Of a stretch of DNA of 64,000 bases, positions 1 through 64,000 are shown piece after piece. The stretch spans positions 1-64,000 of the forward strand of contig CANJNZ010000012.1 of NCBI GenBank assembly GCA_947476045.1. Direction: 5' to 3'. This stretch comes from Chthoniobacteraceae bacterium (GTDB taxonomy: Bacteria; Verrucomicrobiota; Verrucomicrobiia; Chthoniobacterales; Chthoniobacteraceae). The notes under the pieces were generated by a model. The model did not search any database. It saw only the letters and a list, made by a program, of their open reading frames with translations, and was not told where the DNA came from. The position numbers and the translations under genes were made by a program. Position 1 is the first letter of the stretch. Every line of letters starts with the position of its first letter.

Positions 1-589
1 AGAGAGAACGTAGCGACCGGAATTCATGGGCCGAAACCGTGGCCGGGACGCTCGTTGACTTCAAATGCGTCACATCATTTTTCATGCGCAAGTCGCTCAC
101 AAATAGATTTCAACAAAAAACCATCAGCCCGTTAACCGGACACCCGTGGGTAAAAACACTGTATTCGAGTAGTTATCCTAACGAAAATCCGTCCATTCAC
201 GCCCCTGTCTTTTTACGGCTTCGTTTTTCGGAATAATAAATGTATGACGCATGGCGTCGAGTATCAGGGGGCACATCTTTATGTGACATGACAGATTTTC
301 AGGGAGAGGTATGGATTAAAACTCATCCCGACAAAACTCACCCATTTAGAACACGCCTTTGAGCCTCCCGATTTTCATTTTCCGAATAATAAATACATCA
401 CACACCGCCTCGGGTTCCGCAGGAAAAACATCGCCCTGCGTAAAAATAGTCAAAAAAAATTGCCAAAGTTACATTGTTGTGTTTTTTAACGCGCCGTTCT
501 CCATCACCTTCACTCAAAACCCTACGTATAAACACTCCCTGAAACACCTAGTCTCACCACGTTCAACCCACTCCAAACTCTCCGCCAAA
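1..589. other. Upstream non-coding region of the first PEP-CTERM gene
   Basis: No convincing gene is visible here. A 65-codon open frame at 39-236 has no recognisable motif and no ribosome binding site. The stretch contains two copies of a 24-bp imperfect repeat (listed separately) and is AT-rich towards 460-490. It most likely holds the promoter and leader of the gene starting at 590, but I cannot fix a -35/-10 pair. Confidence 0.5.
225..401. repeat. Two imperfect 24-bp direct repeats upstream of the first PEP-CTERM gene
   Basis: Copies lie at 225-248 and 378-401, 153 bp apart, and agree at 20 of 24 positions. The shared core is GAATAATAAAT, preceded by TTTTC. The core resembles a -10 region, so they could be duplicated promoter or operator sites for the gene at 590. 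The function is inferred from position only. Confidence 0.4.
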
Positions 590-3500
590 ATGAAACCCAA
601 CAAAACACTCCGCATCCTCTCCACCTCCATCGCAGCATTCTTTGCTTCCTCGCTCGCATCACATGCCGCGACGAATACTTGGACCATCGCTTCTGGAAAC
701 TGGGACACTACTTCTGCAAACTGGTCCGGCACCGGCTCTATCTGGGCCACCGGTGATGATGCCGTTTTTGGCGGGATCAATATTTGGGAGTCATCTGCTT
801 CCAACGGTGCCGGTGCCGCTCAGACAATCACCATCACTCCCGCCGGTGTCTCCGCCAATAGTGTGACCTTCAACTACACGGGCACCAATATCGCCGGGAC
901 GCCAAATCTGACCCTCACCGGAACGGCCAGCATCACGTCGAATCAAGCTGCCCAGGGCACAGACCTTACTCAAGGTAACAACTACTACACGAACACCATC
1001 TCCGCGCCGATTGCCGGGACTGCTGGTCTGACGAAATTGGGTGTCGGCACGTTGAACCTCACTGGAACGAATATCTATTCTGGCACCACCTTGGTCAGTG
1101 CGGGCACTTTGCGTTTGGGCAGTGCAAGCGCACTTCCCGGCGGCATCAATGCGACTGGCGGCACGAGCGGGTTGACCATCAATGGCGGCGTGGTGGAACT
1201 GGCCAATGGAAGCTTTCTGCGAGATCTCGGCGCCGGTGCTGCCCAGTTCCAAATTACGGGTGGGACTAGCGGTTTCAGTGCTCAGGGCGGTGCCGCCCGC
1301 ACGGTGACCGTCAACAACACAGCGGGGCAGACTGTCCAGTGGGGCTCTGCCAGCTTTGCGCCCACGACGTTCCTGCTCAACGCATTTACGGCAACCGCCC
1401 AGCTCACCGTGTCCAACCCCATTGATCTCAATGGAGCTACCCGCACCGTTCGTTCGGATAGCATCGGCACTGGCGCTTTCGCGACACTTTCCGGCGTCAT
1501 CAGCGACAGCACCGCAACAGGCGCTGGTCTCACGAAGACCGGCCTCGGCGTCGTGGAGCTTTCCAACGCCAACACCTACGCCGGAACGACCACCATCAAC
1601 GGTGGTGTTCTCCGTCTCAGCAACGCCAATGCGCTCCCTGGCGGTATCGGCGCGACTGGCGGCACCAGCGGACTGACCCTCAATGGTGGTGTGGTGGAAC
1701 TGGCCAATGAAACCGGGACCGCTGGAGATTTCTTACGAAATGTCGGCACTGGTGTCGATCAGTTCCGGATCACTGGCGGGATCAGCGGTTTCAGCGCACG
1801 CGGGGCGGCGCGGATAGTAGACGTGAACAATACCGGAACAGAGCTTGTATGGGGTTCATCCACTTTTGCTCCCTCTGTGCTGCTGTTGAATGATGTTACT
1901 GCTACTGGCACGCTCAATTTCAAAAACGCCATTGACCTCAATGGACAAAACCGCACGGTTTCGGTGAACTCTTTTGACCAGACGGCCACTCTGTCGGGAT
2001 TAATTCGTGATACCCAAGGGACAAACGGGTTGATCAAGACCGGCATCGGCATTCTTGCTCTGACGAATGCCAGTAGCAGTATCGGGCGACTAGACATCCG
2101 GGGAGGCACAGTCGCCCTCACTGGGACTACAACTAATGTCATTAAGGACGACGCCCTGATTCTCGTGTCAAACAACGATGGGCAGAACACCTCGATCGGC
2201 AGCTCTACACAAGCTGGTGTCAACGCATCCAATACTAACCCCAATGGCGCGGCCGCTGGCGCGGGATATTCGAAATTTGACATCGGTTCCAATAGCGAAA
2301 CAGTCGGAAAAGTGCTTGTGGATGGGTGGGGCATTGTGGCGGGCACGACCGGCGTGCTGACCAGCACTGTTTCCTTTGAGGTGAAAAGCGGTAACATTAC
2401 TGCACAACTCAGTGGAGCGGTTCCCTTGAACAAAAGCTCCGGTGGATTGCTTGTCCTATGGCCTAACAGCGGCACTGGAAGCAATACATACACTGGAGCA
2501 ACCAATATTACTGGTGGCGTGCTGCGGGTGGAGGCACCCAACGCAATTCCTGGCGGTCTCCTTTTTACTGGCGGAACCAGTGCTATCACCATCAATGGTG
2601 GCGTCCTTGAGATCGGGGCTGACAATGCGAACCATAATGCGAACACTCTAAACCGCGCTCTCGGGAGTGGAGTGGATCAAATTCAGATCACCGGCGGACG
2701 AAGCGGTTTCAGTGCTTTTCAAGTTGCCTCCACTGTCAACTTTGGCGGAGCTGGAGCGACTGTCCAATGGGGTTCCTCTTCTTTCAATCCAACCACTTTC
2801 GTGCTCGGTGAGTCATCATCGAATCAGGGCGGATTTTTTGGACAAGCCAATCTCACATTTGCCAATGGATTAGATCTGAATGGCGCTGTTCGCAATATTG
2901 AGGTTCAAAGCAGGCAGACCGCTCCAGGCGTAGTGACCATGTCAGGCGTCATCAGCGACTCGGTCGGCAGCGGTGCCGGGCTTACGAAGACGGGCGTTGG
3001 TATTCTGGCTCTCACTACTGTCGCCAATACATATGCAGGTGTGACCACTGTCAGTGCCGGTGTTTTAAATATTCAAAATGCAAATTCACTCGGCGCTGTA
3101 GGGGCTGGTAATGGAACAGTAGTTCAGGCGGGTGCAGCGCTGCAAATTCAGGGCGGGATTACGACCGCCGCCGAACCGTTGACCTTGAACGGCAAAGGTA
3201 TCGTGAACCAAGGGATGCAAATGCTGAGCAACACGACTGGCGTCCCCACTGGTGAATACGTTTTTTCTTCCGCACTGCCGGGAACTTTTAACAACAACAC
3301 TGGTGCATTGCGCAGCATCTCGAGCAACAACTTCTACCAAGGATTGGTTACGCTCGCATCCGATGCCAGCATCGCATCTGATGCCAACTTACTGAGCGTC
3401 ACCGGCGGTGTCACCAGCGCCACCAATAAGAATTTGTTTGTAAGCGGTTCGGGCGACACGTCCATCAGCGGTGTCACAACGGGCACGGGCGGCGTGACCA

Positions 3501-6046
3501 TGTTGGGTGAACGTCCAGCGGTCACTTCCGGCACCCTCACGCTCACGGGTGCCAGCACTTATACTGGAGATACCAAGGTGCGGATGGGAACCATCAATCT
3601 AACAGGCAGTCTCAATGGCTCAACGGGCACCAATTTGGATTTCATCGGAATGGGAGCCTTTAAGGTGACCGACACCAACCAAAAAATGCAGGCTCTCACG
3701 GTCACTAGCGGCGATGGCACCGTTCGTTCGTCCCGCGTATCAGCCGTCGTCCCGATCACGCAGACATTTGCCTCCTACACAGCGCCGACTGCTGGGCGGA
3801 CTGTGGCATTTGTCAACGATGGCGGAGTCAACGGCACCGACAACAAGACTGTCCTGACCGGTCAATCCACCGGCTTCATGGGAACGCGCACATTTGCCAA
3901 CTCGGCAACTGGCGTTACCACTGGTGATCGATATGCGTTCTATGCTTCTGGCGGCTACGTGAAGGCATATGAAGCCGCAGACGATCCAACTAATTACCTT
4001 GCAGCTCCAACAGGTGCCACGATTGGTGGCAGCACTTCCTCCAGCAACGTAGATTTGACCACCGGTAACATTACCGCTCAAACCACCGCATCCGCCAACA
4101 CCATTACCATGCGGGCCAGTAACATCACCATGGATTCAACGGCATCGAATCTGGTTCTCAGCACCGATGGCTTGCTTTCCAGTGGCGCTTCTGCGGCCAC
4201 TCTAGGCGGCGGCACGACTCCCAGATTGCAGCCAGCTACTGCTGGCGGCGAGTTGGTAGTCCGCGTGAATAATAGCAGCGATGGCTTGACCATCTCTTCG
4301 GTCATCCAGAACAACACGTCTGCCAGTGCCTTCACAAAAACCGGCGCGGGAACTTTGACCATCAGCGCAGCCCCGACCTACACCGGCACGACAACTGTGG
4401 CTGGAGGTAAATTGACTCTTAGCGCGTTAAATAATTCAACATTAGGGAGCGCCAGTGTCGTAGTTGCAGGAGGAGGGTATTTAAATCTCCAGACTATCTA
4501 TGCGATTGGCGGCGATGGCAATGCCGGGGCTAATATCTATACAGGGGGCACATCTAACAACAGCATGACCATTGAAAGTGGTGGTCGTCTCGAAGGTGGT
4601 GCCAGCAATACTACTTCTCATCTTTATCTGGGCTATTGTGTAAATTCCACCTACAACTCCCTCACTGTAAAAGGCCTCAATTCCCGCGTATCTCTTGCTG
4701 GCAATCAAGGAAGTCGCTTCACCCTTGGCCTCTATGGCAACCACAACTCCGTCAGCATTGAAGACGGTGCGCTCTTTGCGATTGGCGGCGGCGGAACTGG
4801 CGGCGGCAGCACCCAACGCATTGGCGACAACAAGGGAGCTGACTACAACAGCATTACCGTCAAAGACCCCGGTTCGTTTTTCTCTGGTATCGCTAATGGC
4901 TATGTTATCGGAAACATGGGAAGCAACAATAGTGTTTCCATTCAGAATGGCGGTATCATGAGTCTCAATGCGTCGTTCATCGGCGGCCAAAACGCCGGTG
5001 TTTACGGTGGAAGCAATAATACGGTTACCATTGACGGAGCTGGCTCACTGCTGACCTCGGGAACCAATACCAACGGCAGTATGACGATTGGTCGCGGTGT
5101 GGATGCCGCCAGTAACGGCGTGACCGTGCAGAATGGCGGCATGCTCTACTTGAAGGGCACGGATAACAAAAACAATGCAGCCGGATCTTCACGCCCCCTT
5201 GAAATCGGCTCTAGTACCGGCTCCAATTACAACTTCATCACGGTGACCGGCACCGGCTCCAGGTTCATTGCCGACTACTCCTATGCCTTAAACACAAACC
5301 AAGGCACTACCGGAACAGGCGGAGACGGACCTATGAGCGCGCTGCTCGGTTATGCCGACGCAGCCAGCGGCAACCACATGGATGTGTATGACGGCGGCTT
5401 GATCGCGATGAATACACGCCTCGATATCGGCGGCACCAATTCTGTGCTGAACATCGGTAACGGCAGCGGAGCAACCCCTCGGGGAACATTCCGTGACGTG
5501 GCCTTGAACACAGCAACTGCGAAGGTGAAGTTGAATAATGGTGTCTTTGAATTCAGCAAAGATCTCGGCGCAATCTTCGGTTCCGGCACAGTCGAACTCG
5601 CTGGCTCTGGCTATGTAAATGCCTCGTGGGATAGCAACTCCATAGATGTCCCGGTGACGGGAACTGGCAGTCTGGTGAAACAAGGCACTGGAACGCTGAC
5701 GCTGACCTCGGGCCTGAATACCTACACCGGCGCAACTACCGTAGAGACGGGAACCCTGAGCATCAGTTCAGGCTACCTCTACGATTCGGCGAATGTTTAC
5801 ATCGGCTCTGGCGGTATCTTTAATCTGAACTTTGCAGGAGTCGATGAAGTCGGCGGGGTGTTTCTCAATGGTGTGCCACAGGACACAGGTCTTTACATTG
5901 GCCGGTTGGGGAGCGGTGCGGATGTGGAAACCAGCTACATCACCGGCAATGGCATCCTGCTAGTCGGTGTGCCGGAGCCTGGCGCAGCGGTTTCGTTGCT
6001 CGGTGGCCTCGGAATCCTGCTCGGCCTTCGCCGCCGCCGCTCGTAA
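590..6046 (+). CDS. Giant PEP-CTERM autotransporter-repeat surface protein (1818 aa)
   Basis: Exported, probably surface-attached protein. The ATG at 590 is preferred over the in-frame TTG at 359 because it gives a clean signal peptide (basic start, hydrophobic run, SHA-A cleavage region) of about 27 residues. The body carries autotransporter-associated beta-strand repeats (GLTKxGxGTLxLxGxNxYxGxT). A module containing GGTSGLTINGGVVELAN recurs at about nt 1120-1500, 1640-2000 and 2540-2960. The roughly 240-residue module shared with two neighbours is at 3590-4314. T5SS/PEP-CTERM-associated repeats (NNSxTxxxGG) occupy about 4530-5300. The C-terminus is a PEP-CTERM signal: PEPGAAVSLLGGLG, a hydrophobic helix, then RRRRS. 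Such signals are processed by exosortases in known systems; none is in this window. No SD precedes the start. Adhesin or matrix function is inference. Confidence 0.9.
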   Translation: MKPNKTLRILSTSIAAFFASSLASHAATNTWTIASGNWDTTSANWSGTGSIWATGDDAVFGGINIWESSASNGAGAAQTITITPAGVSANSVTFNYTGTNIAGTPNLTLTGTASITSNQAAQGTDLTQGNNYYTNTISAPIAGTAGLTKLGVGTLNLTGTNIYSGTTLVSAGTLRLGSASALPGGINATGGTSGLTINGGVVELANGSFLRDLGAGAAQFQITGGTSGFSAQGGAARTVTVNNTAGQTVQWGSASFAPTTFLLNAFTATAQLTVSNPIDLNGATRTVRSDSIGTGAFATLSGVISDSTATGAGLTKTGLGVVELSNANTYAGTTTINGGVLRLSNANALPGGIGATGGTSGLTLNGGVVELANETGTAGDFLRNVGTGVDQFRITGGISGFSARGAARIVDVNNTGTELVWGSSTFAPSVLLLNDVTATGTLNFKNAIDLNGQNRTVSVNSFDQTATLSGLIRDTQGTNGLIKTGIGILALTNASSSIGRLDIRGGTVALTGTTTNVIKDDALILVSNNDGQNTSIGSSTQAGVNASNTNPNGAAAGAGYSKFDIGSNSETVGKVLVDGWGIVAGTTGVLTSTVSFEVKSGNITAQLSGAVPLNKSSGGLLVLWPNSGTGSNTYTGATNITGGVLRVEAPNAIPGGLLFTGGTSAITINGGVLEIGADNANHNANTLNRALGSGVDQIQITGGRSGFSAFQVASTVNFGGAGATVQWGSSSFNPTTFVLGESSSNQGGFFGQANLTFANGLDLNGAVRNIEVQSRQTAPGVVTMSGVISDSVGSGAGLTKTGVGILALTTVANTYAGVTTVSAGVLNIQNANSLGAVGAGNGTVVQAGAALQIQGGITTAAEPLTLNGKGIVNQGMQMLSNTTGVPTGEYVFSSALPGTFNNNTGALRSISSNNFYQGLVTLASDASIASDANLLSVTGGVTSATNKNLFVSGSGDTSISGVTTGTGGVTMLGERPAVTSGTLTLTGASTYTGDTKVRMGTINLTGSLNGSTGTNLDFIGMGAFKVTDTNQKMQALTVTSGDGTVRSSRVSAVVPITQTFASYTAPTAGRTVAFVNDGGVNGTDNKTVLTGQSTGFMGTRTFANSATGVTTGDRYAFYASGGYVKAYEAADDPTNYLAAPTGATIGGSTSSSNVDLTTGNITAQTTASANTITMRASNITMDSTASNLVLSTDGLLSSGASAATLGGGTTPRLQPATAGGELVVRVNNSSDGLTISSVIQNNTSASAFTKTGAGTLTISAAPTYTGTTTVAGGKLTLSALNNSTLGSASVVVAGGGYLNLQTIYAIGGDGNAGANIYTGGTSNNSMTIESGGRLEGGASNTTSHLYLGYCVNSTYNSLTVKGLNSRVSLAGNQGSRFTLGLYGNHNSVSIEDGALFAIGGGGTGGGSTQRIGDNKGADYNSITVKDPGSFFSGIANGYVIGNMGSNNSVSIQNGGIMSLNASFIGGQNAGVYGGSNNTVTIDGAGSLLTSGTNTNGSMTIGRGVDAASNGVTVQNGGMLYLKGTDNKNNAAGSSRPLEIGSSTGSNYNFITVTGTGSRFIADYSYALNTNQGTTGTGGDGPMSALLGYADAASGNHMDVYDGGLIAMNTRLDIGGTNSVLNIGNGSGATPRGTFRDVALNTATAKVKLNNGVFEFSKDLGAIFGSGTVELAGSGYVNASWDSNSIDVPVTGTGSLVKQGTGTLTLTSGLNTYTGATTVETGTLSISSGYLYDSANVYIGSGGIFNLNFAGVDEVGGVFLNGVPQDTGLYIGRLGSGADVETSYITGNGILLVGVPEPGAAVSLLGGLGILLGLRRRRS

Positions 6047-41150: not shown

Positions 41151-42245
41151 ATGCTCCAAGAAGGCCCAATCGCTCCTGCTATCACGCTCTACATCAAGAT
41201 TCCCGGCTTTGCTGGGCTCTATCGCCATGCGGTGTCTGGACGTTACTACGGGATGAAAAAGCTTAACGGCAAACGACGTGAGAAATCACTCGGCACGACT
41301 GATCGAAAGATCGCTGAGCGCCGCATGAAGGAATGGGTTGGGAACATGGACAAGGTGGATTCCGAGGTGGAGAAGACAACGCTGCGACAATTGCTAGTGA
41401 AGTTCGAGGCTATCACTCAAAGTCAGGTGAAGAACAGTCAGGTGACGACGCGGGCTATCATCAATCATTTCGTGGATTGGTGGTCATTCGGCTTGGACGC
41501 TCAAGTTCGCAACATCCGACCGTCGCACTTGGACGAGTTCCTTGCCGTGCATGAGCCGCGACTGCGCAATACAACTTACAATCGTTACGCTGGTTTTTTG
41601 AAGCAACTGTTCGACATCGCCGTGAATGATCGCGTGATTGCTGAGTCTCCATTTGCTCGCGTGAAAACCCCATGGAAGCGACCGCAAACGCCGGTGCGGA
41701 AGATTCCCACCATTCAACAATTTCAAGCCATCGTCGCTTCCATCCGATCCCAGAGGTTAACGGATCACGCGCAAGACAGTGCAGACTTTGTAGAGTTTCT
41801 GGGCCTCGCCGGATTGGGACAAGCCGAGGCATCTTCGTTGACGTGGGGCGATGTGGATTGGGAACTCAATCGGCTCAACATCCGTCGTCACAAGACGGAT
41901 ACTCATTTTCACGTTCCAATTTATCATCATCTACGTCCGTTGTTGGAGCGGTTGCAGGCCAAGGCGGATCACCCCTCAGCGAGGACGCGAGTATTCAAAA
42001 TCAATGATGCCAAGAAGTCGCTACGCTCCGCATGTGAGCGACTCGGGTTGCCACTCTTCTCCCAACGCAACTTGCGCCAGTGCCTCATCATGCGGCTGTG
42101 GAAAGCGGGGATCGACAAGAAGCTGATCGCCAAGTGGCAGGGGCATCGCGACGGCGGACAGTTGATTATGGACACCTACACCGAAGTGTTTGGTGATGAC
42201 GAGGCGGACTATGAGCGCCAGCAACTGCAAAAGTTGGCAGCGTAG
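41151..42245 (+). CDS. Divergent tyrosine recombinase / phage-type integrase (364 aa)
   Basis: Site-specific recombinase, probably the enzyme that mobilised the island. An N-terminal Arm/AP2-like segment (about 1-60; GKRREKSLGTTDRKIAERR), a SAM-like core-binding domain (about 75-165; NTTYNRYAGFLKQLFDIAV) and a catalytic domain (about 185-355) are visible. In the catalytic domain the box I arginine appears replaced (LAGLGQAEASSLTWGDVDW where AGLR is usual). The box II HxxR is RNLR, so the histidine is also changed. The lysine (RRHKTD), GH (WQGHRDGG) and the nucleophile tyrosine (MDTYTEVF) remain. It may be a specialised subfamily or a weakened enzyme. The ATG at 41151 has no SD. It is adjacent to tRNA-Ala. 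Confidence 0.88.
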   Translation: MLQEGPIAPAITLYIKIPGFAGLYRHAVSGRYYGMKKLNGKRREKSLGTTDRKIAERRMKEWVGNMDKVDSEVEKTTLRQLLVKFEAITQSQVKNSQVTTRAIINHFVDWWSFGLDAQVRNIRPSHLDEFLAVHEPRLRNTTYNRYAGFLKQLFDIAVNDRVIAESPFARVKTPWKRPQTPVRKIPTIQQFQAIVASIRSQRLTDHAQDSADFVEFLGLAGLGQAEASSLTWGDVDWELNRLNIRRHKTDTHFHVPIYHHLRPLLERLQAKADHPSARTRVFKINDAKKSLRSACERLGLPLFSQRNLRQCLIMRLWKAGIDKKLIAKWQGHRDGGQLIMDTYTEVFGDDEADYERQQLQKLAA

Positions 42246-47467: not shown

Positions 47468-48475
47468 ATGGCAGAATCAGAAGCAGTGGCCAAAATGGCG
47501 GATTTGGCGGCGAGAAAAATTTTCGCGATCTTTGGATGGGATGATCTAAAACATCGGAATCGAAATTGGGAGTGCGTTAACCAAAAAAAGCACAACAGAC
47601 AAAAGTCAAAAACCCATCCTGCTGATGTAGTTTTCCGCTATGTCGACCCCTATTCGGGACGTGATGTGTATGTGCACACTGACCTGAAAAGCTACAAAAA
47701 ATCAACGCTAGAGGCCACGGATCTTAAGAAAGCACTGCGAAGTCTGGCGACAGCTATTGAGTGTGCAAGCACCAGTGCGGGCTGGCAAAATTTGTTTCTT
47801 GATGACACTCGAAACAGCGAAATAGTCGGGATGCTTTTTGTGTTCAACCATGACGGTGGTTACGACGCAGACTTTGAAGGACGACTGGAGGCAATTACAC
47901 CGGCAGCAATTGAACTTCCGAACAACCGATTCATTGGCGTTGTTTCTCCGAAAAGAGTTATTTATCTGAACTCAATTGCGAGTGATGTTCAATGCCTGAT
48001 TGCAGACAAGGAGATACCGCATTTAGAGGATTGTTTCTTCTTTTTCCCTCATCTCATGGAATGCGGAGCGGTGCACCCTCACAGTCGTGCGCTCCCTTTG
48101 CAGCACATGTTGTCGCCTTTGATTGTTTTTGGATACAAACCGACGGCCAAGCGTCCTCAAGGGGGGGTCATAGCTTATTCGGACGGACACGGATCTTCGG
48201 TTGATGAATTCAAATATCTGCTGGATTATTTCATTAGGCATCAGATCGCCGACGGGAAAAAACGCGTGGAAGTAATGTTTTCTCGTCTGGATGTTGGTGC
48301 TGCTGGGCATTTTGAAACGGCTAAACGTGAATTCATTAGAGATTACTGGCCGCTGGCAGGAGATGAGAAAGCGGACGCTGTAAAAACTATTTCGAGTGTC
48401 AGTTTGAACACCATTCAAAGCTCTGTTCCTTCGTTTAGCGAAGAGATACTGGGGATGGCAGAGCACAGTTATTAG
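47468..48475 (+). CDS. Putative PD-(D/E)xK nuclease, first gene of a three-gene operon (335 aa)
   Basis: The N-terminal 120 residues carry a restriction-endonuclease-like core. A helix (AARKIFAIFGWDDL) precedes D53 in ADVVFRYVD, followed after 18 residues by D72-x-K74 (VHTDLKSY) and an Ala-rich helix (SLATAIECA). This spacing fits the PD-(D/E)xK superfamily. The remaining 200 residues are not recognised (FIGVVSPKRVIYLNSIASDV, GGVIAYSDGHGSSVDEFKYL) and may sense or bind a partner. It is 3 bp upstream of the next gene, and the third gene abuts that one, so the three form a cistron. The neighbourhood (integrase, SymE toxin, type I RM) suggests anti-phage defence, but I cannot match it to a named system. 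Promoter probably lies in 47350-47460. Confidence 0.65.
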   Translation: MAESEAVAKMADLAARKIFAIFGWDDLKHRNRNWECVNQKKHNRQKSKTHPADVVFRYVDPYSGRDVYVHTDLKSYKKSTLEATDLKKALRSLATAIECASTSAGWQNLFLDDTRNSEIVGMLFVFNHDGGYDADFEGRLEAITPAAIELPNNRFIGVVSPKRVIYLNSIASDVQCLIADKEIPHLEDCFFFFPHLMECGAVHPHSRALPLQHMLSPLIVFGYKPTAKRPQGGVIAYSDGHGSSVDEFKYLLDYFIRHQIADGKKRVEVMFSRLDVGAAGHFETAKREFIRDYWPLAGDEKADAVKTISSVSLNTIQSSVPSFSEEILGMAEHSY

Positions 48476-48478
48476 CAT

Positions 48479-49639
48479 ATGGCAAAATACGCTCTGCTTT
48501 CGCGCATATATCTCACCGATCAGGAGCTTTTTGAACTGATGTCCCCTAAAAATATCTCAACTACATTGTTACTTAAGAAGTTCCGTTCACGCGGGCTGTT
48601 TTTTAGCAACATTGGCGGCTCAGAAACAACATTCCGCTTAAAAGCTTCGCAACTGCCTTCTGACTGGGATCTTATTGATTCTATCGTCGGCAGAATGGAA
48701 CGTTCTGACCCCGCCGGGAAAAAATCCAATGAAGTGATTAAAAATTGTGTCCCTGAACAGGATATTGAAGCTGCCGTGCGAGAGTTGGAAGCTGTAAGAG
48801 GCAGGAAATACCACGAGATTTATAAAACGACAAAAGCAAGCGGCGATGATAAGACCACGATCATTGAGGTTGGCTTTACCGAGATCGACTTATCTGTCGC
48901 TCTTCCTTACCAACGGCGCCAACGAAAGGTGAAGATTGAAGTTACTGAAGGTGCAGACGGATTATGTATTAATTACACCTCAGGCGCTGCAGCGGACAAG
49001 ATTATTGAGGGGCTGAAGTCTTTTATTCAATACACAACCCCAAATGAACCGGATATTCAGCGTATATCGGTTAATTCTTTGCGAACGGCAGAACTTAGAA
49101 CAAGGTTTTTCATGCTCCTTATTCGAGGCATAGAAGGATTTCAGTTCGACAATTCGACCCAGATACTCGTAGACCGGCGATTTCCAGAGGATGACGAAAG
49201 CGAAGAGGCTGACGAAGAAGAAAACGCATTGGAGCCAGGTCGCCGAAAAGCAGAGACGTTTGCGGAAAAAAAGTTGAAGGGTCTTGTAAATCGCGTGTCG
49301 CTACATGGGGAACAAGTGGAGTCAGCAGATTTGTATGAGCACGCTCGCAATTCTGGATATTACATAGCTGGCATGAAGTGGACAGCGTTCGGACAACGCG
49401 ATTCGCAGGTTCATGTCGATTTCGAAGCGGGTTTTGACGATCCAGTGGAGGGGAAGTCGTTCATTTTTAGCGTCGTCCGACAATGGCAATTTTCTGATGA
49501 GGATCCCGACATTGATGAAACGGTCGAGATGTCTGAGGGTCTGAGGCGTCGATTTGAGCAATTATTATACACTTCCGCTGTTAAGGCACTGAATGAAATT
49601 CTTGAGAGTCAGAAGCAAGCGAGTCCGGGAGAAGAATAA
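48479..49639 (+). CDS. Unknown central protein of the three-gene operon (386 aa)
   Basis: I do not recognise this protein. It begins with IYLTDQELFELMSPKNI, where helical segments resemble a winged-helix or small HTH (ISTTLLLKKFRSRGLFFSN). There is a middle beta-rich region (EVGFTEIDLSVALPY) and an acidic linker near residues 235-250 (DDESEEADEEENALEPG) followed by a C-terminal domain (FEAGFDDPVEGKSFIFSVV). No transmembrane helix or P-loop is visible. Its ATG is 3 bp after the nuclease-like gene. Its own stop is immediately followed by the ATG of the third gene, with a GGGAG-type RBS inside its end. Tight spacing implies fixed stoichiometry and a joint complex, by inference. Confidence 0.6.
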   Translation: MAKYALLSRIYLTDQELFELMSPKNISTTLLLKKFRSRGLFFSNIGGSETTFRLKASQLPSDWDLIDSIVGRMERSDPAGKKSNEVIKNCVPEQDIEAAVRELEAVRGRKYHEIYKTTKASGDDKTTIIEVGFTEIDLSVALPYQRRQRKVKIEVTEGADGLCINYTSGAAADKIIEGLKSFIQYTTPNEPDIQRISVNSLRTAELRTRFFMLLIRGIEGFQFDNSTQILVDRRFPEDDESEEADEEENALEPGRRKAETFAEKKLKGLVNRVSLHGEQVESADLYEHARNSGYYIAGMKWTAFGQRDSQVHVDFEAGFDDPVEGKSFIFSVVRQWQFSDEDPDIDETVEMSEGLRRRFEQLLYTSAVKALNEILESQKQASPGEE

Positions 49640-50335
49640 ATGAGCGTTCGCTTGCTATTCCATCGGATTTCGAAAATGGGGCCAGAGCTTCTAAAGAAGG
49701 TGCGCGAAGGCATCGAAAAGGAATTGTTTTGTAACAGAAGTGATAACGGCTTCTTCCTGGAGTCAGCGAACAAACTAGAAATCTCCGGACGATACGTTCA
49801 GCGATTCGCTTCCCATGAATCAACTCTCGATCCGTTCGGCAATTCGATTGGCTACGAAAGAACGATCTACCGGCACCAAAAATTCACTATTCGCGCAATG
49901 CCTGGCAGACTAATTCTTTACGATTGCGGAACGCTTGCTCGACGGTTGCTTGGAAGATTTGCTGATTTCACCGAATTCGAATTTTTCCTCTCCCCTGTAA
50001 TCTTGAATCCTTTGCATGCTTTTGAATGCCTAAAGGGGAAACTTGAGCGCGCTACCGTCACAATGGCCTTGGTGCAATCCTCTATCGTTGGACCGGACAT
50101 CTCTGTGTCAGCTCGCTTCGAAGGCACGGGGGACGTGTTTCGTGCAGTTAGTCGCCTCTTCCCTAAACGAAAGGACACCTTTTCGCGGATTAAAGTCCGA
50201 GTTTGCAAATCTGGTATTGAGATAATTTGCGAGTTTCGCGAAGATGGTAGGATTACGATTTTTGGCAATGAATGGGAATTGTTGATGCCTGACATCGAGT
50301 CTTTGATCCTAGAAGCGATACGCGGAAGTTCGTGA
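49640..50335 (+). CDS. Unknown third protein of the three-gene operon (231 aa)
   Basis: No family is recognised. The protein has a helical start (FHRISKMGPELLKKVREGIE), a central beta-rich core (YERTIYRHQKFTIRAMPGRL) and a second half with VTMALVQSSIVGPDISVSA and KVRVCKSGIEIICEFREDG. No catalytic motif or membrane helix stands out. It directly abuts the preceding stop (TAA then ATG) and has a purine-rich RBS (CGGGAGAAG). It converges on the SymE-like gene. It is likely a structural or sensing subunit of the same putative system. Confidence 0.55.
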   Translation: MSVRLLFHRISKMGPELLKKVREGIEKELFCNRSDNGFFLESANKLEISGRYVQRFASHESTLDPFGNSIGYERTIYRHQKFTIRAMPGRLILYDCGTLARRLLGRFADFTEFEFFLSPVILNPLHAFECLKGKLERATVTMALVQSSIVGPDISVSARFEGTGDVFRAVSRLFPKRKDTFSRIKVRVCKSGIEIICEFREDGRITIFGNEWELLMPDIESLILEAIRGSS

Positions 50336-50395: not shown

Positions 50396-50635
50396 CTAGA
50401 ACAGTTCTCCTTGTTGGACTACTTTCAGAGTAGCCGGTTGTCTGCAAACGAGGCTGATCTGATTCTCTGCCACGGTGATCTCCACCGTGCGCCCGCAAGG
50501 GAATCCCGCGTGCTCCAACCAAAGCCCGCGCAATCGTATCATGGCCACAACGATTTCACCTCTTGCTCTCGGTTCAACAGTGTGGCCAATTTTTACAGTG
50601 CGGCGAGACTTCCGAGAGAGTTTGCGTTTAGACAT
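50396..50635 (-). CDS. symE: SymE-like toxin (79 aa)
   Basis: The hallmark SymE domain is clear: MIRLRGLWLEHAGFPCGRTV followed by EITVAENQISLV. SymE toxins are AbrB-derived, SOS-linked proteins of type I toxin-antitoxin loci, normally silenced by an antisense RNA (SymR) in E. coli. This copy is 79 residues, close to the minimal domain, with a basic N-terminus. I cannot see an antisense promoter with confidence. It faces the three-gene operon and lies among defence genes. Call rests on domain recognition. Confidence 0.8.
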   Translation of the reverse strand: MSKRKLSRKSRRTVKIGHTVEPRARGEIVVAMIRLRGLWLEHAGFPCGRTVEITVAENQISLVCRQPATLKVVQQGELF

Positions 50636-53274: not shown

Positions 53275-53489
53275 CTCCAGAAGAATATACGTATGCCTAC
53301 GAGGCGTATATCGAGGCGCAGACCTTCAACGCAGAGTCTTTCTGCAATGCAACCGGCTTAACTGGCGAACAGCTGGACGAGTTGGTTGAAGTCGGAGCGG
53401 TTGTCCCTTTGGAATACTTCGCCCGGCAAATGTTCTCAGCCGCACAGGTCGCTCGTTTTGCAAAGAAAGGAAGCGGGAATCATGAATAA
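53271..53489 (+). CDS. Small hypothetical protein with HTH-like middle (72 aa)
   Basis: ATG at 53271 overlapping the previous stop, preceded by AAGGAGG. Helical throughout: EYTYAYEAYIEAQTFNAESF, CNATGLTGEQLDELVEVGAV and FSAAQVARFAKKG. The second segment resembles a MerR-like helix-turn-helix. It overlaps the start of the P-loop gene (53482) by 8 bp, so translation is coupled. Family unknown; it may be a regulator or an accessory subunit. Confidence 0.55.
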   Translation: MTPEEYTYAYEAYIEAQTFNAESFCNATGLTGEQLDELVEVGAVVPLEYFARQMFSAAQVARFAKKGSGNHE

Positions 53490-55206
53490 CGAAGCGATTA
53501 CGACCGCTCTGGCAACTTGCGGTGTTCGTCAAATGCTCCACCTCTTTTCACAATCAGGTCATCTGAGCCCGACGAAAAACCTGTGTCCGTTTAATGTCAG
53601 TGTCGCGCAGGACAATACTTCTTGGAGCGATAACGGCTCCTTGAAAAAGGGAGATGTCGTTGATCTTGCGGCATTGGCGTTTGGAATCACTCGCGAAAAT
53701 GCGGCAAAGGAAATCCTCTACCTCATCAATGGCCTTTCGTCCGAAGAGATGGAGAAGTTCCATCCGTGCAGTATCCCTGAAGACGAAGACGCCAGCGACC
53801 CTCCGTTTCCTACGGAATGCCTGCCTGTTCTGCTCAAGGAAATGACCGCTGCGATATGCGACATGGAGGGCGTTCCAGACGTGCTTGCCGCCGGAGCTCT
53901 CATTGGTGCGGTAAGCGGCTGTTTGGGTAGCGGCATCGCCGTTGAAAGCAAATCGGACAAAATGGCTTGCGGGAATCTCTACATCCTATTGGAGGCCGAG
54001 ACCGGGACTGGCAAAAGCGGGGTGTGCGAACGGGCCAAAATCCCAATCGAGGACTATGAGAGCAAATTGGTGAATGAACGCTCCGCAGAACAGCCAAAAA
54101 TCACGGCGCGTCTTGCGATAATCGAAAAGTCGTTCAAGGGGATCGGTCACAACAAGGATGCTGCCGAAAGCGACGAGTTGCTTGAGCGGATCACGGCACT
54201 GGAGACTGAACGCGTTCAATTGGAAGCCAGGAGAATGCCTCCAATTCTGCTTACCGGAGATTCAACGAGCGAGCGACTGATTGAGATCATGTCGGCGAAC
54301 GGCGGCGCTACTCTCAGCATGAGCGGCGAGGCGCGCAGTATCGTTCAGGTGCTCACGGGTTTTTACAACGAGGGTAGGATGAACGAGAGTATTTACCTGT
54401 CCGGCTTCACAGTGATGGAACGCATCCGGCAGAATCGGACGGGCCGTGGAGATGGCTACATTGAACGCCCATGTCTAGCGATTGTTTGGATGTTGCAAAG
54501 CGATGCCTTCGCGAAGCTGTGGGATAACAAATCGCTGGCGGAGGGCGGACTGTTGCCGCGTTTTTTGAGCTGTCGAACCTTCGCCAAGTTGCAGTTTGTG
54601 GATGCTGAGCGGAAGGTGTTTCCCGCCGGTCTGGCAGAGCGCTACCAAGCTAGGTTGAATGAATTGGTGGAAGTGTATCGGCTTCACAAAGGAAATCCTA
54701 TCGTCGCCAAGGCATCAACTGAGGCTCGTGGTGTGATTGCGGACTACACGAATAGAATCATTGAACGGAGGATGTCTGGCGACCTGTCCAAGCGCGCGGG
54801 CGGGTTTGCTGCACGGTGGGGTGAAATAAGCTGGAAGTTGGCGCTGGTTTTACACGCGGTCGAACACGGAGCCAAAGCGCACGCAATCGAAGTCACTCCC
54901 CACACTGCGCGCTGTGCCGTGGCTATCGTCTCGTGGTTTGCACTCCAGCAGCTTGACCTTATTGGTGAGCGCGAGAAAGCCGATGAGGACGACAAGCAAG
55001 TAAAAGTGCTGACTCTGGCAAAGAAGTCGGGTCGAACCAATGCTCGCTTGGTTGCAAAGGCTGGAATCTGCGATGTCAAACAGGCTGCAACACTCCTTAA
55101 TCAGTTGGTCAAAGACGGTATGTTGGAGTCAGCGGATCGGATTGGAGCCGGGCGTCCTACCAGATACTTCTACCCGCCTAGCAACCCTAGAGGCGGACCC
55201 AGATGA
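53482..55206 (+). CDS. DUF3987-type P-loop ATPase/helicase-like replication protein (574 aa)
   Basis: ATG at 53482 with RBS AAGGAAGCGGGA. An N-terminal primase-C-terminal-like segment is followed by a DUF3987 domain: LAAGALIGAVSGCLGSGI, then Walker A ETGTGKS (about 173-179), a conserved PPILLTGDSTSERLIEIM and an RPCLAIVWMLQSDAFAKLW motif typical of the family. The C-terminal helical part ends in a winged-helix-like segment (IGAGRPTRYFYPPS). Proteins of this family are replication/helicase-like components of mobile elements, often with a primase upstream, as here. A coiled-coil insertion (RITALETERVQLE) sits between Walker A and the next motif. Confidence 0.8.
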   Translation: MNNEAITTALATCGVRQMLHLFSQSGHLSPTKNLCPFNVSVAQDNTSWSDNGSLKKGDVVDLAALAFGITRENAAKEILYLINGLSSEEMEKFHPCSIPEDEDASDPPFPTECLPVLLKEMTAAICDMEGVPDVLAAGALIGAVSGCLGSGIAVESKSDKMACGNLYILLEAETGTGKSGVCERAKIPIEDYESKLVNERSAEQPKITARLAIIEKSFKGIGHNKDAAESDELLERITALETERVQLEARRMPPILLTGDSTSERLIEIMSANGGATLSMSGEARSIVQVLTGFYNEGRMNESIYLSGFTVMERIRQNRTGRGDGYIERPCLAIVWMLQSDAFAKLWDNKSLAEGGLLPRFLSCRTFAKLQFVDAERKVFPAGLAERYQARLNELVEVYRLHKGNPIVAKASTEARGVIADYTNRIIERRMSGDLSKRAGGFAARWGEISWKLALVLHAVEHGAKAHAIEVTPHTARCAVAIVSWFALQQLDLIGEREKADEDDKQVKVLTLAKKSGRTNARLVAKAGICDVKQAATLLNQLVKDGMLESADRIGAGRPTRYFYPPSNPRGGPR

Positions 55207-55209
55207 GGA

Positions 55210-55507
55210 ATTTCGCCGGTTTCGCCGTTTCGCCGAAACGCCGAACAATCGAAGCGCGATTATCTGGTTGTTTGTCAAAAGGTTCTCTGGAGAGAAGGGA
55301 ATTGGACATTTGCTCTCAGTAATTCTGGTCGTTGTTCCAACTTCTTGCCCAATCATTTGAACAGGGAGAAATTGAACCAATACTCTTTTGAATCTTTTAT
55401 GGTTATGGAATGAACTTTGGAGTCAGAACCTTCCTGTTTGGCTCAAGTTTCTTCCAGCCAAAGAACCCGGCTTAGACGTTTCGGCGAAACGGCGAAACCG
55501 GCGAAAT
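55210..55507. repeat. Perfect 31-bp inverted repeat pair flanking a 236-bp segment
   Basis: The arm at 55210-55240 is the exact reverse complement of 55477-55507. Each arm contains the palindrome CGTTTCGGCGAAACG (or its complement) plus two more CGCC/GGCG turns. The left arm starts 3 bp after the stop of the P-loop gene and the right arm ends directly at the TAG of the serine recombinase gene. The 236 bp between arms has no convincing gene, so either a promoter or a non-coding cargo could be inverted. A MITE-like origin is possible, but I see no target-site duplication. Confidence 0.9.
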
Positions 55508-56128
55508 CTAATTGCTTCCAGAGCCGATGCAATCGCCAGCCAATTTGCTCCTCAACTCTCTCACAAGCTCCGATGCGGTCGAATATGGAATTGCCAACTT
55601 GCGGCTGATTTCCGCTGCTGACAACCCCTCCGCCAGCAAAGCGGCAACCAGCGGCACACGGGTTTGAGCCTTTGGTGGTCTGCCAAGTCTTACTCCGCGC
55701 TGCCTCGCGGCCTTGATACCGCTTTGAACACGTTCAAGGATCAAACTTCTTTCTAGCTCTGCGACCGCCGCCAAAATGTGAAGCTGGAAGCGAGCTGAAG
55801 GGCTGTTTTCAGTCGTGTCTATGTTTTGGGTGCAAACGACAAGCGCCACGCCATGCGTTTGCAGCTCTTGGATTATCTGAGCCAAGTGAACCAAACTCCG
55901 AGCCAATCTGTCGAGTTTGTAACTTACCACTACATCCACCTTCCCTCTGCGGACGAGTGCCATGATTTGATCGAGACCCTCGCGACTCGCCTTGGCACCC
56001 GATGCGGTATCGGTGATCCAGCGAACATCCGTCCAGCCCCGCCTTTTGCAGTAATCTTCCAACTCAGTTCTCTGGCTATCGTGCGTTTGCTGGTCGGTCG
56101 AGACACGGAGGTAAGCGGCAACTTTCAT
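55508..56128 (-). CDS. Serine recombinase / resolvase-invertase family protein (206 aa)
   Basis: Small serine recombinase. The ATG at 56128 is chosen because it places the catalytic motif at the usual distance: AYLRVSTDQQ, with the nucleophile Ser10 and Arg8. The downstream frame contains YKLDRLARS and NSPSARFQLHILAAVAELER, the conserved E-helix region. The C-terminal HTH is GLSAAEISRKLAIPYSTASE. Length and layout match resolvases and DNA invertases (about 180-210 residues) rather than large integrases. Its stop abuts the inverted-repeat arm at 55477-55507. That arm, and its partner across 236 bp, are likely substrates, which makes DNA inversion a reasonable hypothesis. Confidence 0.9.
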   Translation of the reverse strand: MKVAAYLRVSTDQQTHDSQRTELEDYCKRRGWTDVRWITDTASGAKASREGLDQIMALVRRGKVDVVVSYKLDRLARSLVHLAQIIQELQTHGVALVVCTQNIDTTENSPSARFQLHILAAVAELERSLILERVQSGIKAARQRGVRLGRPPKAQTRVPLVAALLAEGLSAAEISRKLAIPYSTASELVRELRSKLAGDCIGSGSN

Positions 56129-56187
56129 TTCGAAGAATCGCTCAAAATATGTCACAAGCTTTTGGGCGGCGCAGAGGCTCGTCGAAT

Positions 56188-56628
56188 TCAAACTGCCTTC
56201 CAAGACGGGGAGACGCGTAGCAACTCACACATCGCGGCTTGGTCACTCTGGATGCACCGCTCGTGTTCGTCGAAAAGCCATGTGCATTTGCCAGTCACGC
56301 CAAAGGTTTTTTCTATCGCGGCACTGGGAACTTCCATTTCTGCGGTCAGGTCTTCACCGTGATGGATGATGAACTTTCGGCCAACTTTGGTTACGCGACC
56401 ACGGGGAAAAGCGTAGGTTAGGAGAGCAATTTCTGCTGCGAGCTTCTTCTCGCTTACACCGAGCTTCTTGGACCATATCGGTGCCAACACCTCGGGCGCT
56501 AGAATCTGCTCGAACCAATCTGTGTGGCCCAAGTCCGCGCCGGTTACGAATCGCAAGGTAACACATTCCCATCCTGTCGGCAGGAGTAGGACGTAGAAAA
56601 TTCCCTCGGCAGGAGAGCGACACATCAC
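56188..56628 (-). CDS. Hypothetical protein upstream of the serine recombinase (146 aa)
   Basis: Not recognised. It contains GADLGHTDWFEQILAPEVLA, a helical LGVSEKKLAAEIALLTYAF and RVTKVGRKFIIHHGEDLTAEM, giving an alpha/beta look. It starts near 56628 (two adjacent ATG codons) and ends 59 bp before the recombinase start on the same strand, so the two may share a message. Possibly a regulator of the recombinase or unrelated cargo. Confidence 0.5.
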   Translation of the reverse strand: MMCRSPAEGIFYVLLLPTGWECVTLRFVTGADLGHTDWFEQILAPEVLAPIWSKKLGVSEKKLAAEIALLTYAFPRGRVTKVGRKFIIHHGEDLTAEMEVPSAAIEKTFGVTGKCTWLFDEHERCIQSDQAAMCELLRVSPSWKAV

Positions 56629-60277: not shown

Positions 60278-61726
60278 ATGCCCGTCACCCACGATATCGT
60301 CGCCAAGCTCTGGAACCTCTGCAACGTGCTCAAGGACGACGGAGTCACCTACCACCAATACGTCACCGAGCTGACCTATCTCCTGTTCCTCAAGATGGCC
60401 AAAGAGACGGGCACGGAGGAGCAGATCCCCGAAGGTCATCGCTGGGCTGACCTAGAGGCCAAGGGCGCGCCAGACCGCCTTCAGTTCTACAAGCTCGCCC
60501 TCATCCGCCTCGGCGACAAAGGCTCCAAGCTCACCAAGGAGATCTTCGCCAACGCCTCCTCCTTCATCAAGAAGCCCGCCACCCTCTCCACGCTCGTTAC
60601 CGAGATCGACAAGCTCGATTGGTATTCTGCCAAGCAGGAAGGCCTGGGCGACATGTATGAAGGCCTCCTCGAAAAGAACGCCAACGAGAAGAAGTCCGGC
60701 GCTGGCCAATACTTCACCCCGCGCCCGCTCATTGACAGCATGGTCTCCGTGATGAAGCCCACGCTGGACGACATCATTCAGGATCCCGCCGCAGGCACCG
60801 GCGGCTTCCTCATCGCCGCCAATCACTATCTGCGCGAGCACACGGACTTCGACAGCCTCACGGAGGCAAAGCAGCGCAAGTATCAGCGCAATACCTTCTA
60901 CGGCATGGAGCACGTGCAGGACACCCACCGTCTCGCCCTCATGAACCTCATGCTGCACGGCATTGATGGCGGCATCCGCTATGGCGATACACTGTCCGAT
61001 GATGGCACCGCCCTGCCCAAGGCCACGCTCATGCTCACCAATCCGCCCTTCGGCACGAAGAAAGGCGGAGGACTGCCGAGTCGCACGGACTTCACCTTCC
61101 CCACCAGCAACAAGCAGTTCTGCTTTGTCCAGCACATCTACCGAGGCCTCGCCGCAGGCGGACGCGCCGCCGTCGTCCTGCCGGACAATGTCCTCTTCGA
61201 GTCCGGCGTGGGCAAAGACATCCGCAAGGACCTCATGGAGAAGTGCAACCTCCACACCATCCTCCGCCTCCCCACCGGCATCTTCTACGCCCAGGGCGTG
61301 AAGACGAATGTCCTCTTCTTCACCCGCGGCACCACCGACAAGGCCAACACCAAGGAAGTCTGGGTCTATGACCTCCGTGCGAACATGCCGCAGTTTGGCA
61401 AACGCACCCCGCTCACCCGCGAACACTTCACCGAGTTCGACACCGCCTTTGGCTCCGACCCACTCGGCAGCCCCGCCGCGCTGAAAAAGCGCAAGGACAC
61501 CGGCGAGACCGGGCGCTTCCGGAAGTTCACCCGCGAGTGGATCGCCGAGCGCGACGACAGCCTCGATATTTCGTGGCTCAAAGACGACAGCGCCGAATCC
61601 AGCGCCGACCTCCCCGAGCCCGCCATCCTCGCCACCAGCGCGATGGAGGAAATGGAAGCCATCATGGAAGACCTGCGCGGCATCCTCGCGGAGTTGGGTG
61701 AAGAGATCGAGGAGGTGCCAGCGTGA
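60278..61726 (+). CDS. hsdM: Type I restriction-modification methyltransferase subunit M (482 aa)
   Basis: N6-adenine DNA methyltransferase subunit of the type I complex. N-terminal HsdM_N helices (IVAKLWNLCNVLKDDGVTYH) precede the N6-MTase domain. Motif I is DPAAGTGGF (169-177) and motif IV is NPPF (255-258), with GQYFTPRPLIDSMV in between. The C-terminus is acidic (AEMEE-type helices, EEIEEVPA). It follows hsdR after 24 bp and overlaps the start of hsdS by GTGA at 61723-61726, so M and S are made together. Modification protects the host DNA at the site read by the S subunit. Confidence 0.96.
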   Translation: MPVTHDIVAKLWNLCNVLKDDGVTYHQYVTELTYLLFLKMAKETGTEEQIPEGHRWADLEAKGAPDRLQFYKLALIRLGDKGSKLTKEIFANASSFIKKPATLSTLVTEIDKLDWYSAKQEGLGDMYEGLLEKNANEKKSGAGQYFTPRPLIDSMVSVMKPTLDDIIQDPAAGTGGFLIAANHYLREHTDFDSLTEAKQRKYQRNTFYGMEHVQDTHRLALMNLMLHGIDGGIRYGDTLSDDGTALPKATLMLTNPPFGTKKGGGLPSRTDFTFPTSNKQFCFVQHIYRGLAAGGRAAVVLPDNVLFESGVGKDIRKDLMEKCNLHTILRLPTGIFYAQGVKTNVLFFTRGTTDKANTKEVWVYDLRANMPQFGKRTPLTREHFTEFDTAFGSDPLGSPAALKKRKDTGETGRFRKFTREWIAERDDSLDISWLKDDSAESSADLPEPAILATSAMEEMEAIMEDLRGILAELGEEIEEVPA

Positions 61727-64000
61727 AGGAAGTGTCGAATGACGAGTTGCCCGAAGGCTGGACCAAGGCGGCGCTGCAGGATGTCGCTTCCTGGGGCTCG
61801 GGAGGCACGCCATCGCGAAAAAATCCGTCCTACTTCGGCGGCGACATTCCTTGGATTAAGACCGGCGAACTGGATTCGGGACTCATCCTCCAAACCGAAG
61901 AACATTTGACTCATGAAGGGCTCAAAAACTCCAGCGCCAAGGTGTTTCCAAAAGGTGCCGTCGCTGTTGCGATGTATGGAGCAACGATTGGGAAAGCTAG
62001 TATCCTCGGAATCGACGCGGCAACCAACCAAGCCTGTGCCGTTGCGATTCCAGACAAGAGGTTAACAACAAGCCACTACCTATTTCACTATCTTCGCTCG
62101 CAAAAAGAGGCGTTCGTCGGAGCGGGAAAAGGTGGAGCCCAGCCAAACATCTCTCAAGGTCTGATCAAAGAGTGGCCGCTACCGCTAGCGCCCCTCGCAG
62201 AACAGAAGCGAATCGCGGACAAGCTGGAGGCGGTGCTGGGGCGGGTGGAAGCCTGCCGCGCCCGCCTCGACCGCGTCCCCGACCTCCTCAAACGCTTCCG
62301 CCAATCCGTCCTCGCCGCCGCCACCTCCGGCCAACTCACCGAGGACTGGAGGGATGAACACCACATCGACGGGGATTGGCCAGAAGAACGGCTTGAATCG
62401 CTGACCTGCAAAGTCGGAAGCGGCGCAACACCGAGAGGAGGCGAATCAGCATATAAGTCAGAAGGAGTTCCGTTAATTCGATCGATGAACGTCATCTTCT
62501 TTGGATTCAAAGAGGAGGGAATCGCGTTTCTTGATCAGGATCAGGCGCATGATCTTCGCAGCGCCGAGGTAAAAGCTCATGACGTTCTTCTCAACATCAC
62601 AGGAGCCTCGATCGGCCGTGTTACAGTTGCGCCTGCCAAGTTTGAAGGAGCCAGAGTCAACCAGCATGTCTGCATCATCCGGTCAAAGCCTCAGTTGAGT
62701 CCAAAATTCTTGTGTTGGTTTCTGTCAGCTCCAATGATGCAAGGAGCCATTACGGCGGAGAACTACGGTGTCACTCGACAGGCGTTAACGAAGCAGCAAA
62801 TCCTTGATTTCGCGATTCCCCTCCCGACCTCACAAGAACAACAAGAAATCGTCCGCCGCGTCGAAGCCTTGTTCGCCTTCGCCGACCGGATCGAGACCCG
62901 CCTGACCGAGGCCCGCGCCCAAGTGGAGCGCCTGACGCCCGCCACTCTCGCCAAAGCCTTCCGCGGCGAACTCGTCCCCCAAGATCCAAACGACGAACCG
63001 GCATCGGTGCTTTTGAGCAACTTAAAGAAACCATACTCCGGGTCTGTCGACAGAAAAGAAAACCGCAGCCCTAGTCCCTACAGGAAGCCAACGCCTAAAA
63101 AGAATACACCAGCAATGACCGAGAAAAACATTCGTTCTGACAACCGTGTTGAGCAGCTGTCCGACTTCAAATTACACCGGCTAAAGTTGAACGGACGTTT
63201 TGGGCGCTTACTCGATTTTGATGAATGCCTCCGAATGACGAGCCCCAGAGACACAACCCCAATCTGTATGGTCGGCCTCAACGGGTCTGGAAAGTCGAAT
63301 GTCCTCGAAGCGTTATCTGAGATTTTCACCCACTTAGAGTTGATCCTGCTACCGTGGCACCGGGGCACGAAGCGCAAAACAAGCTCTTTGTCATTCGAAC
63401 TAGAATACACAGTGCAGTTTGGTCGCAAACCGCCACGATCCATAAAGATATGGAAGGGAACCGAGGGCAATGCCCAATATTCGGAGACACTAGCAGATGG
63501 TTTGGATCGTGAAATCACTTCTCCTGATGAGCAAAGGAGCCTGCTCCCGCGTAGGGTCATTGGTTACTCGTCTGGTATGAACGAAACGCTAAGTCTGCCG
63601 TATTTTAAGCTTACGGCGCTCTATGTAAAGGAAGTCGCATTGGCTGTGCGACGCGGGCAAGATGAAGACGATTATGTAGCAGAGCCGCGATCACTGTTCA
63701 TCGACTACGAGTCCAATGCGGCCATCCTCCTAGCAAACTTCCTTTTTGCCCCGCCGAGCAAGCTCGCTCTATTCAAACACCATATCAGGGTCGAGGAGGT
63801 TGAATCATTTACGATTCGCTTCAATGCCAAGCCGCCAGCGTTGAAAAGCGGGGTCAAATTGACCGGCCAGCTAACCAACGATCTTGATAAGATTGCGAAG
63901 TGCGCTGGAACCACATTTGATCCGGTTCTTGATGAAAACGTTTTTGTATTTCGCGACGCAAAATTTTACAGGAAGCGCTTTGCGGACGATTTTCCAGATG
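61723..64000 (+). CDS. hsdS: Type I specificity subunit S fused in frame to an AAA/SMC-like ATPase (partial, cut by window end)
   Basis: A single frame runs from GTG 61723 past the end of the window (759 codons seen). Residues 1-430 are a normal HsdS: first target-recognition domain starting LPEGWTKAALQDVASWGSGG, conserved helix (LAEQKRIADKLEAVLGRVEA), second domain (DGDWPEERLESLTCKVGSGA) and second helix (PTSQEQQEIVRRVEALFAFA). Then FRGELVPQDPNDEPASVLL, the usual HsdS end, is followed by a basic linker (430-464) with no stop. An ATPase domain begins near 465 (internal ATG at 63115; HRLKLNGRFGRLLDFDE), with Walker A GLNGSGKS (518-525). It resembles the restriction-system-associated AAA ATPase that normally is a separate gene next to hsdS. 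Walker B lies beyond the window. Confidence 0.88.
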   Translation, partial: MKEVSNDELPEGWTKAALQDVASWGSGGTPSRKNPSYFGGDIPWIKTGELDSGLILQTEEHLTHEGLKNSSAKVFPKGAVAVAMYGATIGKASILGIDAATNQACAVAIPDKRLTTSHYLFHYLRSQKEAFVGAGKGGAQPNISQGLIKEWPLPLAPLAEQKRIADKLEAVLGRVEACRARLDRVPDLLKRFRQSVLAAATSGQLTEDWRDEHHIDGDWPEERLESLTCKVGSGATPRGGESAYKSEGVPLIRSMNVIFFGFKEEGIAFLDQDQAHDLRSAEVKAHDVLLNITGASIGRVTVAPAKFEGARVNQHVCIIRSKPQLSPKFLCWFLSAPMMQGAITAENYGVTRQALTKQQILDFAIPLPTSQEQQEIVRRVEALFAFADRIETRLTEARAQVERLTPATLAKAFRGELVPQDPNDEPASVLLSNLKKPYSGSVDRKENRSPSPYRKPTPKKNTPAMTEKNIRSDNRVEQLSDFKLHRLKLNGRFGRLLDFDECLRMTSPRDTTPICMVGLNGSGKSNVLEALSEIFTHLELILLPWHRGTKRKTSSLSFELEYTVQFGRKPPRSIKIWKGTEGNAQYSETLADGLDREITSPDEQRSLLPRRVIGYSSGMNETLSLPYFKLTALYVKEVALAVRRGQDEDDYVAEPRSLFIDYESNAAILLANFLFAPPSKLALFKHHIRVEEVESFTIRFNAKPPALKSGVKLTGQLTNDLDKIAKCAGTTFDPVLDENVFVFRDAKFYRKRFADDFPD

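Follow-up and report, generated by a model that had tools for sequence, protein, structure and literature searches.

The three adjacent genes at positions 47468–50335 of the window (the whole stretch of 64,000 nucleotides that was analysed) are almost certainly, judging from sequence comparison, a divergent Verrucomicrobiota-type copy of the system Rst_3HP, with proteins Hp1, Hp2 and Hp3 in gene order. The preferred reading as a whole, a divergent Rst_3HP copy in which Hp2 and Hp3 would form a DNA-gripping sensor that brings in or unlocks the predicted nuclease Hp1, is given a probability of about 0.6; the mechanism by itself is less likely than that.

The three genes and their island

Hp1 is encoded at 47468–48475 (335 aa), Hp2 at 48479–49639 (386 aa) and Hp3 at 49640–50335 (231 aa), all on the forward strand, with ATG starts and intact open reading frames. 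The genes are separated by 3 bp (CAT) and 0 bp, so the three-gene operon described in the initial annotation is as claimed. Profile HMMs were built for each gene from 157 relatives, leaving the window out, and run on the 498 reading frames of the window. They matched Hp1 (9.4e-96), Hp2 (2.3e-63), Hp3 (1.7e-28) and no other frame. Because exactly these three of the 498 frames were picked, the three are regarded as real genes.

The surrounding island was also found as it had been described. It carries a tyrosine integrase at 41151 (PF00589, 2.4e-10), a SymE-like protein at 50396–50635 on the reverse strand (PF08845, 2.2e-7) and a type I RM operon with HsdR and HsdM, with HsdS downstream. The GC content is about 46% over the three genes, about 50–55% in the surrounding island and 58–62% upstream of 41 kb. 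A tRNA-Ala at 40724 was considered as the attachment site of the island and rejected, since no exact repeat of at least 14 nt of this region occurs elsewhere in the window.

Identity of the three genes

The PADLOC models for Hp1 (PDLC03004) and Hp2 (PDLC03005) match gene 1 (1.5e-46, residues 2–301) and gene 2 (1.3e-19, residues 11–375), respectively. The PADLOC Hp3 model gave no direct match to gene 3 of the window, and it matches 54 of the 64 aligned Hp3 relatives, which means that this model overlooks divergent Hp3 copies. Gene 3 is nevertheless recognized as an Hp3 homologue through the leave-window-out HMM and through phrog_5850 (4.4e-13). The other two genes also have PHROG matches, gene 1 to phrog_7059 (1.8e-75) and gene 2 to phrog_6531 (3.3e-38). 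In the window, the homologues of Hp1, Hp2 and Hp3 are adjacent, co-directional and in this order, and the homologous trio in the Vibrio phage record PQ189388 carries the labels Rst_3HP Hp1, Hp2 and Hp3. The Pfam search returned no family for any of the three proteins, and the PDB sequence search returned no real relative of them.

A three-gene anti-P1 system of E. coli is presumably the one that was later named Rst_3HP, an identification drawn from the naming together with a figure label and a literature citation. Rousset et al. (2022) reported that three E. coli genes without clear domain, from an E. coli prophage P2 hotspot, protect against P1, and the label HP stands in a figure legend of that paper (PMC9122126). 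The DefenseFinder paper cites Rousset et al. among its sources for such systems (PMC9090908).

The initial annotation had presented the trio as a candidate undescribed system that could be assigned to no named anti-phage system, and had proposed PADLOC as a check. The Hp1 and Hp2 matches and the label in PQ189388 overturn this and rename the trio as Rst_3HP. The system is thus already known, given the PADLOC and PHROG matches, the Rst_3HP-labelled homologues and the published anti-P1 system. The defence role, which had been proposed from context only, is now suggested by homology to Rst_3HP, in analogy to the activity published for the E. coli system against P1.

The window trio shares with Rst_3HP the three gene families, their order, the tight spacing, the mobile-element setting and the invariant PD-(D/E)xK residues. 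It differs in that it is a divergent copy in a Verrucomicrobiota genome, that its Hp3 falls below the PADLOC Hp3 model, and that its Hp1 is about 25–36% identical to any relative found.

Conservation and spread of the trio

Relative loci were collected from bacterial genomes and viral contigs through Hp1 alone, and were then checked for Hp2 and Hp3. In all the Hp1 loci with enough downstream sequence (160/160), Hp2 and Hp3 follow in order; the nine plus-strand exceptions to the trio all run into a contig edge. These 160 loci include the window copy and seven record loci with annotated trios from which the profiles were seeded, and they are not independent cases because viral and genome loci partly overlap. 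The spacing between Hp1 and Hp2 is at most 12 bp in 158 of 158 loci, and that between Hp2 and Hp3 at most 30 bp in 157 of 158. The co-occurrence in other genomes that was to be checked is therefore found, and the fixed association of the three genes is upheld by their constant order.

With one sequence as the query, the viral scan gave no relatives; an alignment query was needed to find the viral loci. Copies of the trio are present in P2-like Klebsiella phages, Pseudomonas inoviruses, plasmids and chromosomal islands. Its position differs among these elements, where it sits as cargo. In a tree of Hp1 and Hp2, the window copy groups with the Verrucomicrobiota copies (SH-aLRT 99), in agreement with its genome. 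3HP thus ranges well past enterobacterial prophages, to Verrucomicrobiota, Acidobacteriota, Thermodesulfobacteriota and Armatimonadota.

The neighbourhood survey covered 130 neighbouring proteins from at most 52 loci. Phage integrase was the commonest Pfam family (6 of the 130), and PADLOC matches were observed for Hachiman HamB, type I RM, JetD, SoFic, Old and AbiEi. These are raw counts, and the defence genes near the relatives serve as context and not as a test. The median pairwise identity is 34% for Hp1, 24% for Hp2 and 18% for Hp3. Hp3 diverges fastest, as might be expected of a sensor in an arms race.

Hp1 as a predicted nuclease

No variation was seen at D53, D72 and K74 of Hp1 among 64 representatives from clustering at 70% identity, so the D...(D/E)xK signature of the PD-(D/E)xK superfamily is present. 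W24, C36, H42, H50, Y58, P61, L73, S75, C99, L123, F124, N127 and P194 are also invariant. The AlphaFold (AF2) model of Hp1 has a pLDDT of 93 and a pTM of 0.91. In this model, a PD-(D/E)xK nuclease domain with the core fold of the superfamily spans about residues 1–165, followed by a C-terminal domain at about 160–320.

Foldseek gave weak matches for Hp1 (best E 1e-3), and the plausible ones among them, HamA and EndoMS for instance, are nucleases. VIA-align of residues ~1–165 returned mostly PD-(D/E)xK proteins with Z of 5–8.6, many of these scores being at a level where chance matches arise; the matches include AF1548, XisH, EndoMS/NucS, HamA, FokI, Can2/Card1, McrC, SduA, LmuA, BamHI and NucC. 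The region 160–320 weakly resembles the RPB5 jaw (Z about 7–8, near the level of chance matches). Hp1 is very probably a nuclease, as predicted by the model together with the invariant residues. The PD-(D/E)xK reading, first made from motif spacing, now stands on firm ground.

In Hachiman HamA, Shedu SduA and Lamassu LmuA, the PD-(D/E)xK domain has broadly the fold seen in Hp1. These systems have other partners, whereas the window operon is without a helicase or SMC partner.

As a separate observation, C36, H42, H50 and C99 form a Cys/His quartet that is invariant in 64 of 64 representatives and could be a metal site.

Predicted folds of Hp2 and Hp3

Genes 2 and 3 share one frame, so Hp2 and Hp3 were modelled together as a single chain; four rows taken from annotated records were left out of an alignment for structure prediction. 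The intervening TAA was read as Gly, and the AF2 model of this read-through chain has a pLDDT of 89 and a pTM of 0.68. In the model, Hp2 consists of a short helical N-terminus, TBP-like domains and an acidic linker at about residues 236–250. The acidic linker that the initial annotation had noticed in the second protein is present (PEDDESEEADEEENALE) and falls in a low-confidence part of the model.

The Hp2 half matches Chl4/CENP-N with a Foldseek E-value of 3.8e-5 (prob 1.00) and a Z of up to 9.0 over 107 residues. TBP-like folds are widespread, and the Chl4/CENP-N score exceeds, but is close to, those of other TBP-like domains. Among the further matches of the TBP-like region are the N-terminal domain of the RnlA endoribonuclease (Z up to 8.6) and the RNA-binding domains of METTL16 (Z 8). 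The Hp3 half gave structural matches to E. coli RdgC (Foldseek 2.2e-6; Z 11.3 over 212 residues) as well as to Iml3/CENP-L (Z 11.5 over 173 residues), and phage RdgC proteins were matched too. Hp3 is thus predicted to have the global RdgC/CENP-L fold, a resemblance of structure only: the Pfam RdgC family (PF04381) matched neither the window Hp3 nor any of the 64 relatives at E 0.1. Both proteins had been called unrecognized; by model comparison, gene 2 appears to contain TBP-like domains with CENP-N/Chl4 as the best match, and gene 3 an RdgC/CENP-L(Iml3)-like fold.

The resemblance of Chl4 and Iml3 to RdgC and TBP has been reported (PMC4080450). In a limited literature search, no report was found of two adjacent bacterial genes that match both CENP-N and CENP-L. 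The likeness here lies in the pairing of Hp3, with an RdgC/Iml3 fold, and its neighbour Hp2, which best matches Chl4/CENP-N; the difference is that the resemblance of both is structural only and on the Hp2 side covers about 107 residues. From these models, Hp2 and Hp3 probably bind nucleic acid. At the level of the family, the RdgC/CENP-L fold of Hp3, the CENP-N-like region of Hp2 and the homology to GapS4 seem to be new here.

Relationship to GapS4

The NCBIfam model GapS4a scores 53.7 bits on Hp1, below its cut-off of 270, which places Hp1 outside GapS4. The GapS4a loci used for comparison are over the cut-off, were drawn from the family to which a Vibrio genome belongs and are shorter than 4 kb each. 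A second gene, GapS4b, adjoins them. By hhalign, GapS4a aligns with Hp1 (prob 96.6, 4.8e-10) and GapS4b with Hp2 (prob 96.0, 4.3e-9), while no link was found between GapS4b and Hp3. Hp1 and Hp2 thus appear from profile comparison to be distant homologues of GapS4a and GapS4b, and this tie between 3HP and GapS4 through two homologous genes seems new. Because the alignments tie GapS4a to Hp1 and GapS4b to Hp2 but not to Hp3, GapS4 looks like a two-gene cousin of 3HP. No Hp3 homologue was seen within the GapS4 sequences of less than 4 kb, and a third gene could lie further off.

The window trio was rejected as an exact GapS4, since it is under the family cut-off and its third, conserved gene departs from the two-gene make-up; GapS4 was kept as a relative. 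A further difference concerns D72-x-K74 of Hp1: at this place, S-x-K stands in each of the three GapS4a sequences examined. These three sequences have conserved acidic residues in an N-terminal helix, and together with the S-x-K this suggests that the active site of GapS4a may be arranged differently from that of Hp1.

Possible mechanism of the trio

No description of a mechanism for Rst_3HP was found in the literature searched. CENP-N pairs with CENP-L as a heterodimer at centromeric DNA, and RdgC binds DNA as a ring (title of PDB 2owy). On account of these two properties, we infer that Hp2 and Hp3 may form a heterodimer that grips DNA. The heterodimer would sense a DNA state specific to the phage and would recruit, deliver or unlock Hp1. 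Hp1 would then cut DNA, either that of the phage only or that of the host too (abortive infection). This clamp-plus-nuclease mechanism, with gripping by Hp2-Hp3 and cleavage by Hp1, is drawn by analogy and is put at somewhat under even odds. The fold hypothesis behind it (CENP-N for Hp2, RdgC/CENP-L for Hp3) can be checked by simple DNA-binding and pull-down assays. A more far-reaching version is rather doubtful: Hp2-Hp3 would be a prokaryotic counterpart of CENP-N/CENP-L, would encircle DNA and arm a PD-(D/E)xK nuclease against phage, and GapS4 would be a two-gene form without the CENP-L-like half.

It is unlikely, though conceivable, that Hp1 of this Rst_3HP copy is an abortive-infection effector that cuts RNA (tRNA or mRNA); Hp2-Hp3 would then be a regulator that senses RNA or protein and forms no DNA clamp. 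RNA is a possible substrate of PD-(D/E)xK domains, and the resemblance of the Hp2 TBP-like region to RnlA and METTL16 would fit such a role. However, DNases make up the great majority of the structural neighbours of Hp1, and the DNA-binding ring of RdgC also argues against it.

RdgC-like proteins also act in recombination, and the trio could serve mobile elements as a cassette for recombination or maintenance, made of an RdgC-like protein and a nuclease, with a secondary anti-phage effect. The RdgC fold of Hp3, the many copies in phages and beside integrases, and the annotation of Hp3 by a depositor as an RdgC-like exonuclease are in line with this. The cassette is nonetheless improbable, since the trio is cargo at differing sites of P2-like phages, inoviruses, plasmids and chromosomal islands, some relatives adjoin Hachiman, type I RM, JetD, Old and AbiE genes, and anti-P1 activity was measured for the E. 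coli three-gene system (PMC9122126). The undescribed defence system first proposed can be dismissed: the missing Pfam families, the Hp3 missed by PADLOC and the low identity of Hp1 would suit it, but the PADLOC Hp1 and Hp2 matches, the Rst_3HP-labelled trio, the leave-window-out profiles that match all three genes and the constant co-occurrence of the genes contradict it.

Other features of the window

HsdS of the type I RM operon and a Septu PtuA-like ATPase are encoded in one open frame (1019 aa), which occupies 61723–64000 and continues past the window end. The PtuA-like part lies at about residues 812–951 (PADLOC PtuA, 9.8e-43; AAA_21). In the extended locus sequence, the fusion (24–3083) is followed by an HNH-type gene with weak PtuB matches (3087–4196). 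By sequence, the fusion and the HNH gene link the specificity subunit of a type I RM system with a Septu-like module.

An inverted repeat of 36 bp (94%, with TTTCGCC-like units) is located at 55210–55245 and 55472–55507, its arms 226 bp apart. A serine resolvase gene (55508–56203, reverse strand) directly adjoins it, and the repeat may be the recombination site of this resolvase. Several small unmatched open reading frames lie upstream of a gene for a DUF3987 protein at 53386–55206 (PF13148, 1e-50), and this region looks like a replication-type module of a mobile element.
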